A DNA stretch of 64,000 nt from Lactiplantibacillus paraplantarum (GTDB taxonomy: Bacteria > Bacillota > Bacilli > Lactobacillales > Lactobacillaceae), in the NCBI RefSeq assembly GCF_003641145.1, contig NZ_CP032744.1, forward strand, positions 1,426,001 to 1,490,000, given 5' to 3'. The translations under genes were made by a program, and so were the position numbers. Below the pieces are notes generated by a model. It saw only the letters and a list, made by a program, of their open reading frames with translations. It ran no database searches and was not told the DNA's origin. Below, piece by piece: positions 23,354 through 30,590 of the stretch. Numbering within the stretch: the stretch's first letter is position 1; every line of letters begins with the position of its first letter.

Positions 23354-24742
23354 TTGTTTAAAAAAGTCTTAGTGGCGAACCGTGGTGAAATTGCGGTCCA
23401 AATTATTCGTGCCCTGCATGAGATGGGTATTAAAGCGGTCGCTGTTTATTCGGTGGCTGATCAAGAGAGTTTATTTGTCCATTTGGCTGATGAAGCAGTT
23501 TGTATTGGGGCGGGTCCCGTCAACCAGTCATATTTGAATATGCAAGCAATTATTAGTGCTGCTAATTTGACCGGCTGCCAAGCGATTCATCCAGGCTACG
23601 GCTTTTTATCTGAAAATGCTGAATTCGCCCAAATGTGTGCGGATTGCCAGTTAACGTTTATTGGCCCACACCCTGAGGTGATTGATCAAATGGGTGATAA
23701 GGAAAATGCTCGCCAGACCATGCAACAATTAGGGGTACCAGTGATTCCTGGGAGTCCATCGGTGCTTAAGGATGTTGATGCGGCCCTGCAAGCTGCTCAT
23801 GATTTGGGTTACCCGGTCATGATTAAAGCCGCTGCTGGCGGTGGTGGCAAGGGAATTCGCGCGGTTAACAATGATCAAGATTTAGCTAAGGCGTTCCGGA
23901 CAGCTCAGCAGGAAGCACAAGCTTCATACGATGATCACCGATTGTACTTAGAAAAAATCATTGCCCCGGCGAAACACATTGAAGTACAGGTCTTAGCCGA
24001 TCAACAAGGGCACGTGATTTATTTGCCAGAACGTGATTGTTCGTTACAACGGAATCACCAAAAAGTATTAGAGGAAAGTCCGTGCGCGGCCATTACAACC
24101 ACTGAGCGGACCAAGTTGGGACGATTAGTGGCTAATGCAACCAAAAAGTTGGGCTATACAAATACGGGGACTTATGAGTTTTTAATGGATCAAGAGCATC
24201 AATTTTATTTTCTAGAAATGAATACACGGTTACAAGTTGAGCATACGGTTACTGAAATGGTAACGGGAATTGAATTGATCAAAGCACAAGTAAGGATTGC
24301 GGCCGGAATGCCATTAACCATCACCCAGGCAGACGTGCACATTCATGGTGTTGCGATGGAGTGTCGCCTGAATGCGGAGGATCCCTACCACGAGTTTCGA
24401 CCCCAGCCGGGTAAAATTACCCAGTTGATTTATCCAATGGGGACGCTCGGTGTTCGAATTGATGCTGGAGTAGTCACTGGTAGTGTGATTGCGCCGTTCT
24501 ACGACTCGATGATTGCTAAGATGATTGTTCATGGCACCGACCGGGAGACGGTGATTCGCAAGATGCACCGTTGTCTACTGGAACTGACGATTGAGGGGGT
24601 TCAAACAAATCAAACCTTCTTAGCAGGATTAGTAGCAGATACAACTGTTCGTCGGGGCACGTATACCACGGCCTATATCGAACAAGACTTTTTGAAAGGG
24701 TGGTTAAGTGATGCCCAAGCGCAAGTTTCAAGCGCCCACTGA
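23354..24742 (+). CDS. accC: Biotin carboxylase of acetyl-CoA carboxylase
   Basis: The protein has 462 residues. It carboxylates the biotin on AccB using ATP and bicarbonate. FKKVLVANRGEIAVQIIRA, HPGYGFLSENAEFA, the ATP-grasp glycine loop AAGGGGKGIR and FLEMNTRLQVEHTVTE are intact. The start is TTG 23354, eight bases after GGAGG; an ATG at 23347 reads only four codons. It overlaps accD. Confidence 0.94.
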   Translation: MFKKVLVANRGEIAVQIIRALHEMGIKAVAVYSVADQESLFVHLADEAVCIGAGPVNQSYLNMQAIISAANLTGCQAIHPGYGFLSENAEFAQMCADCQLTFIGPHPEVIDQMGDKENARQTMQQLGVPVIPGSPSVLKDVDAALQAAHDLGYPVMIKAAAGGGGKGIRAVNNDQDLAKAFRTAQQEAQASYDDHRLYLEKIIAPAKHIEVQVLADQQGHVIYLPERDCSLQRNHQKVLEESPCAAITTTERTKLGRLVANATKKLGYTNTGTYEFLMDQEHQFYFLEMNTRLQVEHTVTEMVTGIELIKAQVRIAAGMPLTITQADVHIHGVAMECRLNAEDPYHEFRPQPGKITQLIYPMGTLGVRIDAGVVTGSVIAPFYDSMIAKMIVHGTDRETVIRKMHRCLLELTIEGVQTNQTFLAGLVADTTVRRGTYTTAYIEQDFLKGWLSDAQAQVSSAH

Positions 24743-25553
24743 ACGGCAGTTAGCTGTTCGCCGGGACTACATTCCGGACGCGCTATTGACGCGATGTCCA
24801 GTTTGCCATGAAGATTGTTATACCCAAGATCTTGGTGAGTTCAAGGTATGTCCCCATTGTGATTATGGCTTTCGGTTACCTGCCTGGCAACGAGTTCAAC
24901 AATTGACGTCACACTTTGAAGAGCGGGATGCTGATCTGAGTGCGCCCATCAGCTTTGATGACCCGGCATACTTGGAAAAGTTGCAACGTGCCAAGTCGGC
25001 CACCCACCTGAACGAAAGTGTCCTAACTGGAATTGGAAGATTAGGCGTGCATCGGTTTGGTTTAGGTGTGATGGATACAAACTTTATGATGGGGAGCCTA
25101 GGTTCGGCGACGGGGGAAAAAATCACCCGGTTATTTGATGATTGTACGGCCCAACAATTACCAGTCATTATGGTTACAGCCTCGGGTGGTGCGCGGATGC
25201 AAGAAGGATCATTAGCATTGATGCAGATGGCTAAAGTGTCAACGGCAGTTGCTAATCATCGTGAAGCTGGATTATTGTATGTTACAATATTAACTGATCC
25301 AACGACGGGTGGGGTCACCGCTAGTTTTGCCATGCAAGGTGACATTATGCTAAGTGAACCGCGTGCTTTAATTGGGTTTGCGGGTCGGCGAGTGATCGAA
25401 CAAACCATTCAGCAGACACCACCAGCCGATTTTCAACGCGCGGAGAGGTTGTTAGCCAATGGTTGGTTGGATCAAATCGTGCCTCGACCGGCTTTACGAA
25501 AAACAATACAACGATTATTAACAATCACCCAGGGAGGTCATCAGAATGTCTAA
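24711..25553 (+). CDS. accD: Acetyl-CoA carboxylase carboxyltransferase beta subunit
   Basis: The protein has 280 residues. The N-terminal zinc ribbon uses C29, C32, C47 and C50 (CPVC and CPHC). The transferase fold shows VTASGGARMQEG and DPTTGGVTASFA. AAAGGGTGG precedes; ATG 24711 is better spaced than GTG 24708. It works with AccA to move the carboxyl group onto acetyl-CoA. It overlaps both neighbours. Confidence 0.94.
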   Translation: MPKRKFQAPTERQLAVRRDYIPDALLTRCPVCHEDCYTQDLGEFKVCPHCDYGFRLPAWQRVQQLTSHFEERDADLSAPISFDDPAYLEKLQRAKSATHLNESVLTGIGRLGVHRFGLGVMDTNFMMGSLGSATGEKITRLFDDCTAQQLPVIMVTASGGARMQEGSLALMQMAKVSTAVANHREAGLLYVTILTDPTTGGVTASFAMQGDIMLSEPRALIGFAGRRVIEQTIQQTPPADFQRAERLLANGWLDQIVPRPALRKTIQRLLTITQGGHQNV

Positions 25554-26316
25554 AACAACGGCCTATGAACAAGTTCAGGCGGCGCGTGCCGCTAATAAGA
25601 TTAGCATTCAAATGCTGATTGATGGCTTGACGGAAGACTTCTTTGACTGCCACGGTGACCGTCAACGGGCTGATGATCCAGCTGTGATCGCAGGTTTAGC
25701 AACGATTGCCGACCGACCCGTAACCATTATTGGCATTCAGAAGGGGCAAACTTTAGCTGAAAATCAAGCCCGGCACTTTGGCTGTGCGACGCCTAGCGGT
25801 TATCGGAAGGCGCTACGATTGATGCAGCAAGCAGAACAATTACGGCAGCCCGTTGTGACCTTAATTAACACTCCGGGTGCTTATCCGGGGGTTGATGCGG
25901 AATATCAAGGGCAAGGTCGAGCGATTGCTGACTGCTTATTAGCGGGATTGCAGTTAAAAGTACCATTTTTGAGTTTGATTGTTGGCGAAGGTGGTAGTGG
26001 TGGTGCGCTGGCCCTAGCGTGTGGCGATCAGGTTTGGATGCTAGCAAATAGCACTTATTCAGTGCTGTCGCCCGAAGGCTATGCCACAATTTTATGGAAG
26101 CAATCCCAACGTGCGGCTGAGGCTGCGGAAAAAATGCGCTTAACGCCCACAGAACTATTGGCGGACGGCGTTATTGATCGGATTATTCCAGAAGTGGCAA
26201 CTGCAGCTGATTGTCAGCCACTCAAAGCAGCCATTGACGAAGCTTTAACGGCTTTAACAGCCAAGCCGGTGACGGAACTAGTGGCGCAACGCCAAGCCCG
26301 TTATCGACAATTTTAA
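25546..26316 (+). CDS. accA: Acetyl-CoA carboxylase carboxyltransferase alpha subunit
   Basis: The protein has 256 residues. Typical strings are LTEDFFDCHGDR, GTP-like INTPGAYPGVDAEYQGQ and LIVGEGGSGGALALACGD. GGGAGG precedes the ATG, which lies inside accD. It completes the malonyl-CoA-forming carboxylase within the same operon as its consumers. Confidence 0.94.
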   Translation: MSKTTAYEQVQAARAANKISIQMLIDGLTEDFFDCHGDRQRADDPAVIAGLATIADRPVTIIGIQKGQTLAENQARHFGCATPSGYRKALRLMQQAEQLRQPVVTLINTPGAYPGVDAEYQGQGRAIADCLLAGLQLKVPFLSLIVGEGGSGGALALACGDQVWMLANSTYSVLSPEGYATILWKQSQRAAEAAEKMRLTPTELLADGVIDRIIPEVATAADCQPLKAAIDEALTALTAKPVTELVAQRQARYRQF

Positions 26317-26336
26317 ACAAGTGAGGAATGATAAGT

Positions 26337-27095
26337 ATGGACGGAATTTTAGCGGGTAAGACCATTGTTGTTATGGGAGTTGCCAATCAACGGAGTATTG
26401 CGTGGGGGTGTACCGAGGCACTAATGGCACAAGGGGCCCAAGTCATCTTGACTTACCAAAATGACCGTTTGAAACAAAGTTTGCAACGATTTGTGGCGCC
26501 GACTGTACCGTTGATTGCCTGTGATGTTGCCGATGATGACAACGTTGACCGGGCGTTTGCAAGTATCAAGCAGCAGTATGGTGCTATCGATGGCATTATT
26601 CATGCGATCGCCTATGCGGACAAAGCAACGTTAGAAGGCGAATTTGTGAATACAACGAAGGCCGGGTATGATCTGGCGCAAAATATTAGCGCGTATTCAT
26701 TGATTGCGGTTGCTCGAGCAGCTCGACCAATGCTCAAATCCGGAGCGAGTCTAGTGACGTTAACGTATTTTGGGTCAGAACGCGCCGTGCCAAATTATAA
26801 TATGATGGGTGTTGCTAAGGCAGCCCTAGAGGCGAATGTTCGTTACTTGGCCCGTGACCTTGGTCCACAACAAGTTCGAGTAAATGCGATTTCAGCCGGA
26901 GCGGTTAAAACGTTGGCAGTTACGGGAATTCATGAGCATCAGCAATTATTAAAACTATCTCGTAGTATGACTGTCGATGGTGAACCGGTAAAAACGCGTG
27001 AAATTGGCAACGTGGCCGCCTTTTTATTAAGTGATTTGTCGACTGGGATGACTGGTGATGTGGTATACGTGGATAAAGGGGTTCACTTAAGTTAA
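26337..27095 (+). CDS. fabI: Enoyl-ACP reductase (FabI type)
   Basis: The protein has 252 residues, an SDR-like reductase for the last step of each elongation cycle and the known target class of triclosan-type inhibitors. The active-site residues are Tyr144 (TLTYFGSERA), Tyr154 and Lys161 (NYNMMGVAK), in the FabI-specific Y-x6-K spacing. TGAGGA at 26322-26327 favours ATG 26337 over ATG 26328, which touches it. Confidence 0.94.
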   Translation: MDGILAGKTIVVMGVANQRSIAWGCTEALMAQGAQVILTYQNDRLKQSLQRFVAPTVPLIACDVADDDNVDRAFASIKQQYGAIDGIIHAIAYADKATLEGEFVNTTKAGYDLAQNISAYSLIAVARAARPMLKSGASLVTLTYFGSERAVPNYNMMGVAKAALEANVRYLARDLGPQQVRVNAISAGAVKTLAVTGIHEHQQLLKLSRSMTVDGEPVKTREIGNVAAFLLSDLSTGMTGDVVYVDKGVHLS

Positions 27096-27637
27096 TGTCA
27101 ATTAGGCAAGTTACTTTCAATTGGCAGTGGTTAGAATTACCGACCGATGTTACCAGAACAGCGCGTCGGGAAGCGCAGCGCACTGTGAGCCGACAATTGA
27201 TTCAACAATTATTACCGGTGCCATTGGCTTATCACCGACTGGGACAGCCGTATTTTCCGAGTCAGCCCCAATTAGGCGTCAGTGTTAGTCATACGTACCA
27301 GTTAGTGATGGTAGCATTGGGCCCAGGACCACTGGGAATTGATGTTGAACAGGTGCGCCCACATGATTTAGATGCCATTCGACGGGCCTTTACGCCCGCA
27401 GAATGGCATCTTTTACAAACCTTATCGGCGCAAGAACGACAGCGGCTGGGGTGGCAACTTTGGACGGCTAAAGAAGCTGTGTTAAAGCTAGTGGGCTGTG
27501 GTTTGACCCATGCACCACGTCAAGTTGAAGTACTCGATTTAAAGCATGGACGCGTGCGCTATCAATCTCAGTCATATCAGTTGACGCCCTTGGCATTGCC
27601 TGCGACATACGTGGGCTTTTTGGCACAACATGTTTAA
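27095..27637 (+). CDS. 4'-phosphopantetheinyl transferase, Sfp-like
   Basis: The protein has 180 residues. The two family motifs are present: GIDVEQVRP (Asp83 and Glu85 bind Mg) and WTAKEAVLK (residues 123-131). It moves phosphopantetheine from CoA to the ACP Ser39, so it probably activates the ACP of this operon. The ATG overlaps the fabI stop. It is the last operon gene, before a very strong terminator. Confidence 0.9.
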   Translation: MSIRQVTFNWQWLELPTDVTRTARREAQRTVSRQLIQQLLPVPLAYHRLGQPYFPSQPQLGVSVSHTYQLVMVALGPGPLGIDVEQVRPHDLDAIRRAFTPAEWHLLQTLSAQERQRLGWQLWTAKEAVLKLVGCGLTHAPRQVEVLDLKHGRVRYQSQSYQLTPLALPATYVGFLAQHV

Positions 27638-28676: not shown

Positions 28677-29177
28677 ATGGAACCCATTCAAATTTCACAG
28701 ACTTTATCAATTAGCAATCACCGTGTGTTTTCCGCGGATCTGAATGAGCATGATACAGTTTTCGGCGGCAAAATCCTGGCGACCATTGATGATAATTCAT
28801 CAATTGCGGCATCGCGAGTAGCGCGGATTGAGACGGTGACCGTATCAATTGATCAAGTCAATTTTTTGTTGCCATTCCGGTTACAGGACTCAATGTGCGC
28901 GGAATCTTACGTTTCGGGCGTCGGTCATCGGTCAATCGAGGTGTTTACTAAAATTATTGGCGAACATTTGAAGACGGGGGAACGTTTTTTGGGCTTAACT
29001 TGTTTTTCAACGTTCGTGGTAACGGATCGCAATATTGAATTACCAGCGCTAGTGGCCGATAAGCCAGAATATGCATTTGTTGCACATGGTTATCAGGAAC
29101 GCCAGGTGACTCGGCTGACTAAGCTAAAACGCCAACAAGATTTCAATGCGCACATTAGCGTTGATTTGCCTTGGTGA
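28677..29177 (+). CDS. Acyl-CoA thioesterase, hotdog (YciA-like)
   Basis: The protein has 166 residues. It has the family signature LNEHDTVFGGKILATIDDNSSIAA, the counterpart of N-x-x-G-T-V-F-G-G with a following acidic residue, and the middle string VSIDQVNFLLPF. It probably hydrolyses acyl-CoA esters; chain length is not deducible. ATG 28677 follows GATGAGGTG. Confidence 0.82.
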   Translation: MEPIQISQTLSISNHRVFSADLNEHDTVFGGKILATIDDNSSIAASRVARIETVTVSIDQVNFLLPFRLQDSMCAESYVSGVGHRSIEVFTKIIGEHLKTGERFLGLTCFSTFVVTDRNIELPALVADKPEYAFVAHGYQERQVTRLTKLKRQQDFNAHISVDLPW

Positions 29178-29188
29178 ATGGATTTTGG

Positions 29189-29217
29189 TTGACAATGTTG
29201 GTAAGCCTTGTTAAATT
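29189..29217 (+). promoter_or_regulatory. Promoter of the leader/rsgA-paralogue unit
   Basis: A perfect TTGACA (29189-29194) and TAAATT (29212-29217) are 17 bases apart; transcription would begin around 29224, 23 bases before the five-codon ORF. Confidence 0.6.
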
Positions 29218-29223
29218 ATAACT

Positions 29224-29393
29224 ATCAAATATAGGAGGGGTGTTTTATGTCGGTCATTCGTTAGGGCGTTGTTGAACGAAAAAAGTGGGTCAGACCCGCT
29301 TGGTTTCGTGTACCCTAATGTGACGAATGACCACGGCATGTGAACACGCCGCACGGTTTTTGCGCACAGTGGGATAAACTGGGCGCATTTTTT
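29224..29393 (+). promoter_or_regulatory. Attenuator-like leader with upstream ORF and nested stems
   Basis: The leader contains a very strong ribosome binding site (GGAGGGG, 29234-29240) and the ORF MSVIR (29247-29264). P1 is a perfect 10-bp stem, GGTCATTCGT (29252-29261) with ACGAATGACC (29323-29332). P2 is TAGGG/CCCTA (29262-29266 with 29313-29317), and inner stems are ACGAAA/TTTCGT and GTGGGT/ACCCGC. A terminator with six Ts follows. Most of the small ORF lies in the 5' arm of P1, so a ribosome on it would open P1. An alternative pairing, CCAC (29331-29334) with GTGG (29369-29372) and TGTG (29339-29342) with CACA (29365-29368), would block the terminator stem. The arrangement resembles ribosome-mediated antibiotic-response attenuators; that role is inferred. 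Confidence 0.7.
29247..29264 (+). CDS. Leader ORF MSVIR
   Basis: ATG 29247 follows GGAGGGG by six bases and stops at TAG 29262-29264. Its last three sense codons and stop form the 5' arm of the leader stem P1. Confidence 0.6.
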   Translation: MSVIR

Positions 29394-29396
29394 ATT
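29361..29396 (+). terminator. Leader terminator upstream of the RsgA paralogue
   Basis: TGCGC-A-CAGT pairs with ACTG-G-GCGCA (one mismatch) and is followed by six Ts, 44 bases before the GTPase start. Confidence 0.85.
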
Positions 29397-29439
29397 CGCA
29401 GAGCATCAGGGTGAGTCACTTTGCGAAAGGATTATAAAA

Positions 29440-30498
29440 TTGACAATTAATTTAACTAAATATGGATTGACGACCGCAGTTGAAACAACCAGTCTTAAAG
29501 AAGACGGACAAATGCTCGGTCGCGTTATTAGCCAACACCGTGATTTATACCAAGTCATCACGGCCACTGGCGAACGGCAAGCTCGGGTTACCGGAAAACT
29601 AGCCCATGCCGCAACAAGTCCAACGGCGTTTCCGGCTGTTGGTGATTGGGTTCAGGTGTGTCCAACTGCTGATGATCAGGCTCAGATTGAAGCTATCCGA
29701 CCACGTCAAAGTGTCTTGGCACGGGGAGCAGTGAATCAGCATGATGGTCAAATCATTGCGACTAATATCAACACGATTTTTATTTGTATGTCACTGAATG
29801 CGGACTTTAATGTGCGACGCGTAGAGCGTTATCTGACGATTGCGTGGGATAGCGGTGCGTTACCGGTGATCATCTTAACAAAGGCAGATGTCTGTACGGA
29901 TTTAGCGGCTAAGTTACGGGCCGTGGCGGACGTGAGTGTTGGCGTGTCAACGATAACGTGTTCAGCCGAGACGGGCCAAGGATTGGATGACTTGCAACCA
30001 TACCTAACGACTGGTCAAACGGTGGCCTTTGTAGGCTCTTCGGGGGTTGGTAAGTCGACTTTAATTAACCGGTTACTCGGACAAGATGTCTTGACGACGA
30101 AAACGATTCGTGAAGATGATGATAAAGGACGGCACACAACGACGAGTCGGCAATTGATACCTCTACCTACAGGCGCCTGTGTGATTGATACGCCGGGAAT
30201 GCGTGAACTGCAAATCTTTGTGGGCGATTTAGATCAAACTTTTGCGGAAATTGCAACGTTATCAGCGCAGTGTAAGTTTAATGATTGTACCCATACCAGT
30301 GAACCTGGGTGTGCCGTACGAGCAGCCGTTGAAGCTGGCACGGTGACGGTAGAACGGTTACAGAGTTATCAAAAATTACAACGCGAGATGAGTTATCAGG
30401 GGCTTAATTCACGCCAGTTAGAACAGGCAAAAATTCAGCGGATGTTTGGCGGCAAACAGGCAATGAAACGTGTCAAGCAGCGCTATCATCGCGACTAA
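29440..30498 (+). CDS. Ribosome-associated circularly permuted GTPase (RsgA paralogue)
   Basis: The protein has 352 residues. The order is an N-terminal OB-fold (about 25-95), then a GTPase domain with permuted motifs: G4 TKAD (147-150), then P-loop GSSGVGKS (199-206), then DTPGMREL. A zinc site follows in CKFNDCTHTSEPGC. RsgA enzymes help mature the 30S subunit. This copy is not in the usual rsgA setting (no kinase/phosphatase or rpe neighbours) and has an extended N-terminus, so it is likely a paralogue. The start is TTG 29440, seven bases after GAAAGGAT. It is controlled by the attenuator-like leader. Confidence 0.88.
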   Translation: MTINLTKYGLTTAVETTSLKEDGQMLGRVISQHRDLYQVITATGERQARVTGKLAHAATSPTAFPAVGDWVQVCPTADDQAQIEAIRPRQSVLARGAVNQHDGQIIATNINTIFICMSLNADFNVRRVERYLTIAWDSGALPVIILTKADVCTDLAAKLRAVADVSVGVSTITCSAETGQGLDDLQPYLTTGQTVAFVGSSGVGKSTLINRLLGQDVLTTKTIREDDDKGRHTTTSRQLIPLPTGACVIDTPGMRELQIFVGDLDQTFAEIATLSAQCKFNDCTHTSEPGCAVRAAVEAGTVTVERLQSYQKLQREMSYQGLNSRQLEQAKIQRMFGGKQAMKRVKQRYHRD

Positions 30499-30541: not shown

Positions 30542-30590
30542 AGCGTGCGCCAAAAGGTGGTCTGTAGTAAGCCACCTTTTGGCGCACGCT
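30542..30590 (+). terminator. Long stem-loop after the RsgA paralogue
   Basis: A perfect 19-bp stem (AGCGTGCGCCAAAAGGTGG, 30542-30560, with 30572-30590) around an 11-base loop. No T run follows directly, but a second T-rich hairpin begins about 25 bases later. Confidence 0.6.

Follow-up and report, generated by a model that had tools for sequence, protein, structure and literature searches.

The RsgA2 gene of the window (the whole 64,000-nt stretch of Lactiplantibacillus paraplantarum DNA that was analysed) is preceded by a leader RNA in which a five-codon mini-ORF (uORF) lies inside a long covarying rod, followed by an intrinsic terminator and by a hairpin next to the Shine-Dalgarno (SD) sequence of the gene. 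We are nearly certain that this leader is a real element, and comparison among relatives bore out the earlier proposal that an attenuator with a translated uORF precedes an RsgA paralogue. The leader is probably a dual attenuator of the vmlR layout, in which the RNA senses a ribosome on the uORF, and drugs or faulty ribosomes induce RsgA2. It appears to belong to a family of RNAs missing from Rfam, which combines vmlR-like logic with new target genes and with an occupancy-sized uORF whose own SD is sequestered.

All features of the leader are on the forward strand. The putative promoter consists of TTGACA (-35; nt 29189–29194) and TAAATT (-10; nt 29212–29217), with a 17-nt spacer and TG before the -10, matching the consensus at 10 of 12 positions. 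The hexamers of the strong promoter claimed in the earlier note were present as placed, and similar ones were seen by eye in relatives, but the site alone was not above chance (6 sites vs 4.0 expected). The SD of the uORF, AGGAGGGG (nt 29233–29240), is followed by ATG TCG GTC ATT CGT TAG (nt 29247–29264), encoding MSVIR. Stem P1, found in the fold and by covariation, has its 5′ arm GGTCATTCGT (nt 29252–29261) beginning at the last base of codon 2 and extending through codon 5, and all 10 positions pair with the 3′ arm ACGAATGACC (nt 29323–29332). Folding placed inside P1 the hairpin P2 (nt 29276–29309), built of ACGAAA/TTTCGT and AAGTGGGT/ACCCGCTT; next comes the switch segment S, GTACCCTAATG (nt 29310–29320), which is complementary to the loop of P5. 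The anti-SD side of the rod (nt 29334–29352) could instead form a hairpin P3 (CGGC/GCCG), an alternative noted by eye. Terminator P4 (nt 29361–29393) has its stem at nt 29361–29387 and six T residues at nt 29388–29393, while hairpin P5 (nt 29395–29427; 9 pairs), with the loop CATCAGGGTGAGTCA (nt 29404–29418), adjoins the RsgA2 SD GAAAGGATT (nt 29425–29433). The SD with MSVIR, the perfect 10-bp stem, the inner stems and the six-T terminator had all been described before, and each was found in its place. Two additions to that layout were made. The rod is longer, since in the minimum-energy fold nt 29235–29251 pair, with gaps, with nt 29335–29352 and take in the SD and start codon of the uORF itself; the other addition is P5 directly before the RsgA2 SD. 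An extension of the stem read by eye, TAGGG (nt 29262–29266) with CCCTA (nt 29313–29317), was rejected, being absent from the minimum-energy fold of the window, which pairs nt 29262–29263 with nt 29321–29322.

The folding energy of the leader was -77.5 kcal/mol versus -58.1 ± 4.3 kcal/mol in 200 shuffled sequences (z = -4.5), and no shuffle equalled it. A covariance model, R1, trained on 8 leaders (alignment A3) that all came from other genera by record title, found the leader of the window at nt 29233–29335 (E = 1.9e-6 over 75 sources; 46.3 bits); when 150 of the 230 first-look candidates in the 3.37-Mb genome to which the window belongs were scored, nothing else reached E ≤ 10. Model R2, built from 22 leaders including that of the window (alignment A5), matched 37 of 397 genomes of the family under strict filters, representing 8 of 40 genera, and 5 of 398 genomes of a phylum sample, own genome counted. 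Within the genus set of 21 genomes, 19 of which carry RsgA2, 17 were matched at E ≤ 0.01. The other four were G003 and G005, the two without RsgA2, and G002 and G014, where RsgA2 is present and the leaders, searched as loci (L092 and L100), gave E = 0.0042 and 0.077. A uORF with an SD was carried by all 19 RsgA2-bearing genomes when leaders were picked by RsgA2 rather than by the model, an SD-like stretch being a requirement of the scan that every one of the 19 satisfied; the two genomes without RsgA2 had no leader match in the R2 search, which also missed two of the 19. In line with the earlier statement that no known RNA family was recognised, Rfam 15 had no family at the leader site at the gathering score, and further comparison returned only a microRNA model (18 bits vs a cut-off of 80). 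Among the matches listed, the open-licence PMC literature contained no description of this leader, and the main text of a 2010 survey of premature terminators (PMC2965389) made no mention of GTPase, EngC, YjeQ or YloQ.

Because RNAalifold on alignment A1 (13 mixed rows) gave no useful consensus, a single leader (L024) supplied the structure, which was then tested on the others. The two alignments used, A5 and A6, were fitted to this structure and so lean towards it. In A5, 87.3% of cells were paired versus 79.1% in shuffled controls, and 16 of 26 pairs had double changes versus 7.4, with none of 500 shuffles as high. A6 has 46 rows, comprising 43 distinct sense-strand leaders, two antisense self-matches and one repeat; 84.5% of its cells were paired (72.3% shuffled), 25 of the 26 rod pairs were changed on both sides, and the double-change cells numbered 144 versus 42.7 ± 5.4, again unmatched in 500 shuffles. 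The covariation score of A6 was 0.419 versus 0.214 in shuffles and fell to 0.066 or less when the partner was slid by one to three columns. Upper P2 (helix 6 of A6) had 96.1% of cells paired, with changes on both sides in five of five pairs. Thus, the covariation in related leaders on which the earlier note had made its reading depend was present in both alignments. Tests of own versus swapped partners, which use no alignment, were run on 28 representatives, among which L011 lacks the region after P1 and adds a constant. The P1 arms paired with their own partner at -17.3 kcal/mol per leader versus -12.5 ± 0.6 with swapped ones (p ≤ 5e-5), and for the uORF SD with the region after P1 the own partner was better by 1.9 ± 0.4 kcal/mol (p ≤ 5e-5).

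A short ORF was located at the same spot in all 43 distinct sense-strand leaders of A6 (38 of five codons and 5 of four), a count that is not independent of the search because the models include the ORF columns. As in a vmlR-type attenuator, a short uORF with an SD was thus found in the leader of the gene. Only TAA or TAG served as stops in the 43 leaders, and a stop occurred at codon 5 or 6 throughout; L093, L094 and L032 lack the one at codon 6 and have one at codon 5. The peptides varied (MSVIR, MSGIR, MSVVY, MSARN, MSAIV, MAVID in L009, MRVVD, MLFIG, MSDIQ, MSVIL, MSVI in L032, and others), and the conservation of codons 2 to 4 is due in part to stem pairing. The RLR motif of macrolide-arrest leaders of the hflXr kind was in none of the 43 peptides, RVR being present in L037. 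With its steady length and variable residues, the uORF would more likely serve to sense ribosome occupancy.

These data bear on three other readings. An ordinary terminator of the upstream gene, with hairpins arising by chance, might be supposed since a thioesterase-like gene (nt 28677–29177) ends just 5′ of the leader; with a promoter-like site in between, a fold z-score of -4.5 and a leader conserved across genera, which already refutes it, this reading has a negligible probability. It is very improbable that the RNA acts through structure only, binding a protein, an sRNA or a metabolite, with the short ORF incidental. The strong structural covariation would suit such an RNA, as would an ORF present in 43 of 43 leaders partly by construction of the models, but the stop at codon 5 or 6 was kept throughout, at codon 5 even in L093, L094 and L032, and Rfam gave no match. 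Slightly less probable still is an amino-acid attenuator in which the uORF senses the charging of one tRNA, as trp-type leaders do. Codon 4 was Ile or Val in 33 of 43 uORFs and codon 2 was Ser in 32 of 43 (counts in which L009 and L032 were misread); however, no run of one codon was observed, codons 3 and 5 varied, the stem, too, constrains the bases in codons 2–4, and no tie to amino-acid synthesis was seen for RsgA2 or for the RNHCP and methyltransferase genes found behind the same RNA (see below).

The strand that would carry the switch was traced by the same kind of test. By eye, S and the P5 loop change together, as in GTACCCTT/AAGGGTAC of L101, ACCCAAATAC/GTATTTGGGT of L015 and GTACCCAC/GTGGGTAC of L026. 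Pairing of S with P5 was -11.4 kcal/mol for own and -8.9 ± 0.5 for swapped partners (24 representatives; p ≤ 5e-5), and for S together with P1b, the 18 nt after S, it was -17.7 versus -13.6 (26 representatives), the own partner surpassing foreign ones in 15 of 16 clades (Wilcoxon p = 0.0007). When the leader was folded free, P1b was paired with the uORF side with a probability of 0.88 in the window and of at least 0.5 in 36 of 40 leaders, and S was paired upstream with a mean probability of 0.41 in the window (0.59 unpaired) and of at least 0.5 in 35 of 40. As the rod holds S only partly in the window, S:P5 might form there with the rod closed. P1 and S+P1b:P5 both covary and share the P1b strand, so that the leader has competing stems as in vmlR, together with an SD hairpin that the alternative pairing S:P5 would open; the methyltransferase leaders L146 and L156 had no S:P5 complementarity.

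The antiterminator suggested earlier, CCAC/GTGG plus TGTG/CACA, did not hold in the four relatives in which its conservation was looked at (L085–L088): CCAC and GTGG were lacking in L085, whose RsgA2 is 87% identical to that of the window, and in L088, and TGTG was lacking in L086 and L087. The alternative that covaries is, in its place, nt 29310–29320 with the post-terminator hairpin. A hairpin before at least 4 T residues was found in 27 of 27 representatives scored, the scan having taken a later hairpin for L136; L011, outside those 27, had no terminator T-run. For the stretch from the rod 3′ arm to the terminator, the own terminator arm was no better than foreign ones (p = 0.11; 27 representatives). 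S with the terminator arm gave p = 0.0009 by plain permutation and 0.12 at the clade level, S+P1b gave 0.009 and 0.03, respectively, and P1b alone 0.37. The P4 loop GGGTA with TACCC gave p = 0.17 for a wide segment, 0.005 and 0.0009 for exact arms, and 0.12 by clade. When the uORF was blocked, the minimum-energy fold kept the terminator hairpin in 33 of 39 leaders, versus 35 of 39 when it was free. The translational part of the switch is thus fairly supported, whereas the transcriptional part, the weakest link, is suggested by the presence of the terminator and by analogy.

In three leaders from two species by record title (L009 and L013, Lentilactobacillus senioris; L011, L. laojiaonis), the uORF SD region has the RsgA2 SD itself as its partner (probability 0.67–0.83), and the unpaired probability of the RsgA2 SD rose from 0.10–0.20 to 0.73–0.81 when the uORF was blocked. 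Such a gain was not uniform, which weighs against the preferred reading: of the 39 leaders scored (L026 left out), 24 had the RsgA2 SD more exposed with the uORF occupied. Because blocking the uORF frees the RsgA2 SD in these leaders, ribosomes on the uORF would turn RsgA2 on, the most likely polarity and one in which we have good confidence. The earlier note had proposed this polarity too, and its further idea of a self-monitoring ribosome circuit is conjectural. Under the opposite polarity, the gene would be off while the uORF is translated; with few active ribosomes, initiation would be lost, the rod would form and the gene would come on, S:P5 forming while the rod is closed. This is unlikely, yet several observations are compatible with it. 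The rod also hides the SD of the uORF, so that a state without ribosomes could reinforce itself; within the rod of the window, S is partly free; and the terminator hairpin was predicted in both states in most leaders. Against it, the rod of L009, L011 and L013 includes the RsgA2 SD and would repress RsgA2, upstream pairing of S reaches a probability of 0.5 or more in 35 of 40 free leaders, and vmlR, with the same layout, is described as induced by stalling (PMC9226507).

Under the preferred reading, that of occupancy turning the gene on, two pairings supported by comparison would alternate: the long rod pairs the uORF and its SD with strand P1b, and S together with P1b can pair instead with P5 near the start of RsgA2. 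Any ribosome held on the uORF would keep the rod open, because the SD and five codons amount to about one ribosome footprint, and slow initiation, an arrested short chain or slow release could each hold it. The freed S/P1b would disfavour the terminator and, in read-through RNA, pull P5 open so that RsgA2 is made; with no ribosome held, the rod would close, RNA polymerase would terminate and leaked transcripts would be poorly translated. The inducers are likely to be ribosome-targeting drugs or faulty ribosomes, and RsgA2 would then be an inducible RsgA relative working on ribosomes so affected. That ribosome-targeting drugs or defective ribosomes are the natural signal seems reasonably likely, and antibiotics would be expected to induce the gene.

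The gene at nt 29440–30498 has a TTG start and encodes a 352-aa paralogue of the ribosome small-subunit GTPase RsgA. The earlier assignment to this family was upheld: the protein passed the curated cut-off of 100 for TIGR00157 (RsgA) with 159.9 bits and scored 182 bits with PF03193, and its relatives in PDB were RsgA structures. It was designated RsgA2 because a canonical RsgA, 33% identical to it, is located elsewhere in the genome (G000:C1:1398222). From family membership, RsgA2 is predicted to be a GTPase acting on the small subunit. In L. plantarum WCFS1, rsgA2 is lp_1687, named once, as modulated by hydroxytyrosol, in PMC7278804. Directly 3′ of RsgA2, two perfectly matched 19-bp arms separated by 11 nt form an inverted repeat (nt 30542–30590) that is its likely terminator. 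Farther upstream (nt 24708–27637), ORFs with accD/accA-like, enoyl-ACP reductase-like and phosphopantetheinyl transferase-like translations were recognized by eye.

The same RNA was also found before other genes. Of 38 matches in the family search, 30 loci were opened and 28 leaders lay directly before RsgA2. The remaining two, L136 and L140 of one genus (from nt 1501 in both, on the reverse complement in L140), preceded an RNHCP-domain protein (PF12647, 135 bits for L136), with a second short uORF between leader and gene (MFNNLASAIVR* and MHKNYTSASVR*). A set of GGAGGG/CCTTCC/TTAGGAGGG was also observed between the leader and the RNHCP gene in both. Apart from the own genome, the phylum sample gave matches at L144 before RsgA2, at L146 (nt 1501–2432) and L147 before a SAM methyltransferase of PF08241 (Methyltransf_11), and at L145, which ends at a contig edge. 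A search with this methyltransferase found it in 22 of 398 phylum-sample genomes at E ≤ 1e-30, and R2 matched 5 of 23 methyltransferase loci at E ≤ 0.004, namely L152 (= L146), L154, L155 (= L147), L156 and L158; L153 and L157, with a methyltransferase 89% identical, had no R2 leader match. Among the RsgA2 loci of the phylum sample, one of 29 had the leader (L180, the same record place as L144). Some clostridial leaders (L016, L017 and L018) hardly differ in sequence although their records name different genera, which suggests that they were transferred or that assemblies are contaminated.

Within 3 kb or less on each side of 80 RsgA2 loci, genes were found for a CD3324-family protein (NF040785) in 9 loci, for an RNHCP protein in 6 and for a methyltransferase in 3. 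Compared over almost their full length, the methyltransferases at L016 and L032 share 35% and 36% identity, respectively, with that at L146. The kinds of genes behind this RNA thus also neighbour RsgA2, though at a minority of the loci. Most frequent among these neighbours, the small Mor-like CD3324-family protein was encoded downstream of RsgA2 in L016, L017, L018, L020, L021, L024, L032, L045 and L051, and in L130 its gene had, by eye, its own short ORF upstream.

Leaders of other types were observed before other Bacillota RsgA2 genes. Among 45 RsgA2 loci with at least 150 nt upstream, 29 had some short ORF with an SD, and 17 had a uORF of about 18–22 codons, chosen by eye (L027, L029, L030, L033, L041, L045, L046, L048, L051, L056, L058, L059, L061, L062, L068, L072 and L073). 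All 17 of these peptides contained EG or EV, and [ADEG]-I-[VA] was present in 14 of 17 versus 2.0 expected from shuffled residues (maximum 7 in 2000 shuffles). A loose anti-SD pattern (CCTC or CC[TC]CC) lay 41–80 nt before the match start in 15 of 17, and in L027 and L029, for example, three stretches could compete, namely GGAGGG at the EG codons, a CCCTCC and the gene SD. More distant leaders upstream of the methyltransferase (L162–L166) had TTG-started five-codon ORFs, noted by eye (MDIVL, MDIVR and MEIVL), with the I-V pattern common to the long uORFs before other RsgA2 genes. A third type, in Bacillus-like genomes (L075, L076, L077 and L084), had uORFs with NFI[SP]QPS upstream of RsgA2, and the DNA TTTCATA-CACAGCCCTC was common to L075–L077.

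One RNA before RsgA2, RNHCP and methyltransferase genes suggests a translation-stress gene set. The widest reading, in which one RNA family with an occupancy-reporting mini-ORF commands a portable, chromosomally clustered stress set, a second, unrelated uORF leader serves RsgA2 genes in other Bacillota and all three proteins are new ribosome-protection or repair factors, is put forward tentatively, its chances being close to even. Attenuators of this layout mark genes made when ribosomes are in trouble, and one RNA family before three adjoining gene kinds offers a way straight to the functions of RNHCP and this methyltransferase. The findings also suggest that the second RsgA is an inducible ribosome-stress factor, and the uORF offers a test of occupancy versus peptide sensing.

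Known systems share parts of this arrangement. In E. coli toiL-topAI, one uORF is described as reporting several classes of translation inhibitors by where ribosomes are held (PMC12121999), a likeness in sensing, although termination there is Rho-dependent and the target is a toxin-antitoxin system. The WblC/WhiB7 regulon of Streptomyces coelicolor provides a precedent for a stress-related RsgA paralogue, the RsgA/EngC pair SCO6149 and SCO5211 being named among paralogues that differ in WblC dependence (PMC7157823), but control there is by a transcription factor. Listeria rli80-hflXr (lmo0762) is reported as a uORF-dependent transcription attenuator of a ribosome-associated GTPase paralogue that gives drug resistance (PMC6310831); it resembles the present case in these respects and differs in its 14-residue uORF with the RLR motif, absent here, and in that HflXr is tied to ribosome splitting and recycling. 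In the vmlR leader of Bacillus subtilis, as described, a Met-Ile-Asn uORF lies in an anti-antiterminator followed by a terminator and an SD hairpin, and the opened strand competes with both (PMC9226507). The likeness to vmlR is one of layout as described: a very short uORF in a stem comes first, an intrinsic terminator follows, and the SD of the gene lies at a hairpin. The two differ in that the uORF has three codons there and five here, its own SD is single-stranded there and paired here, and the target is an ABC-F protein there and an RsgA paralogue, an RNHCP protein or a methyltransferase here.
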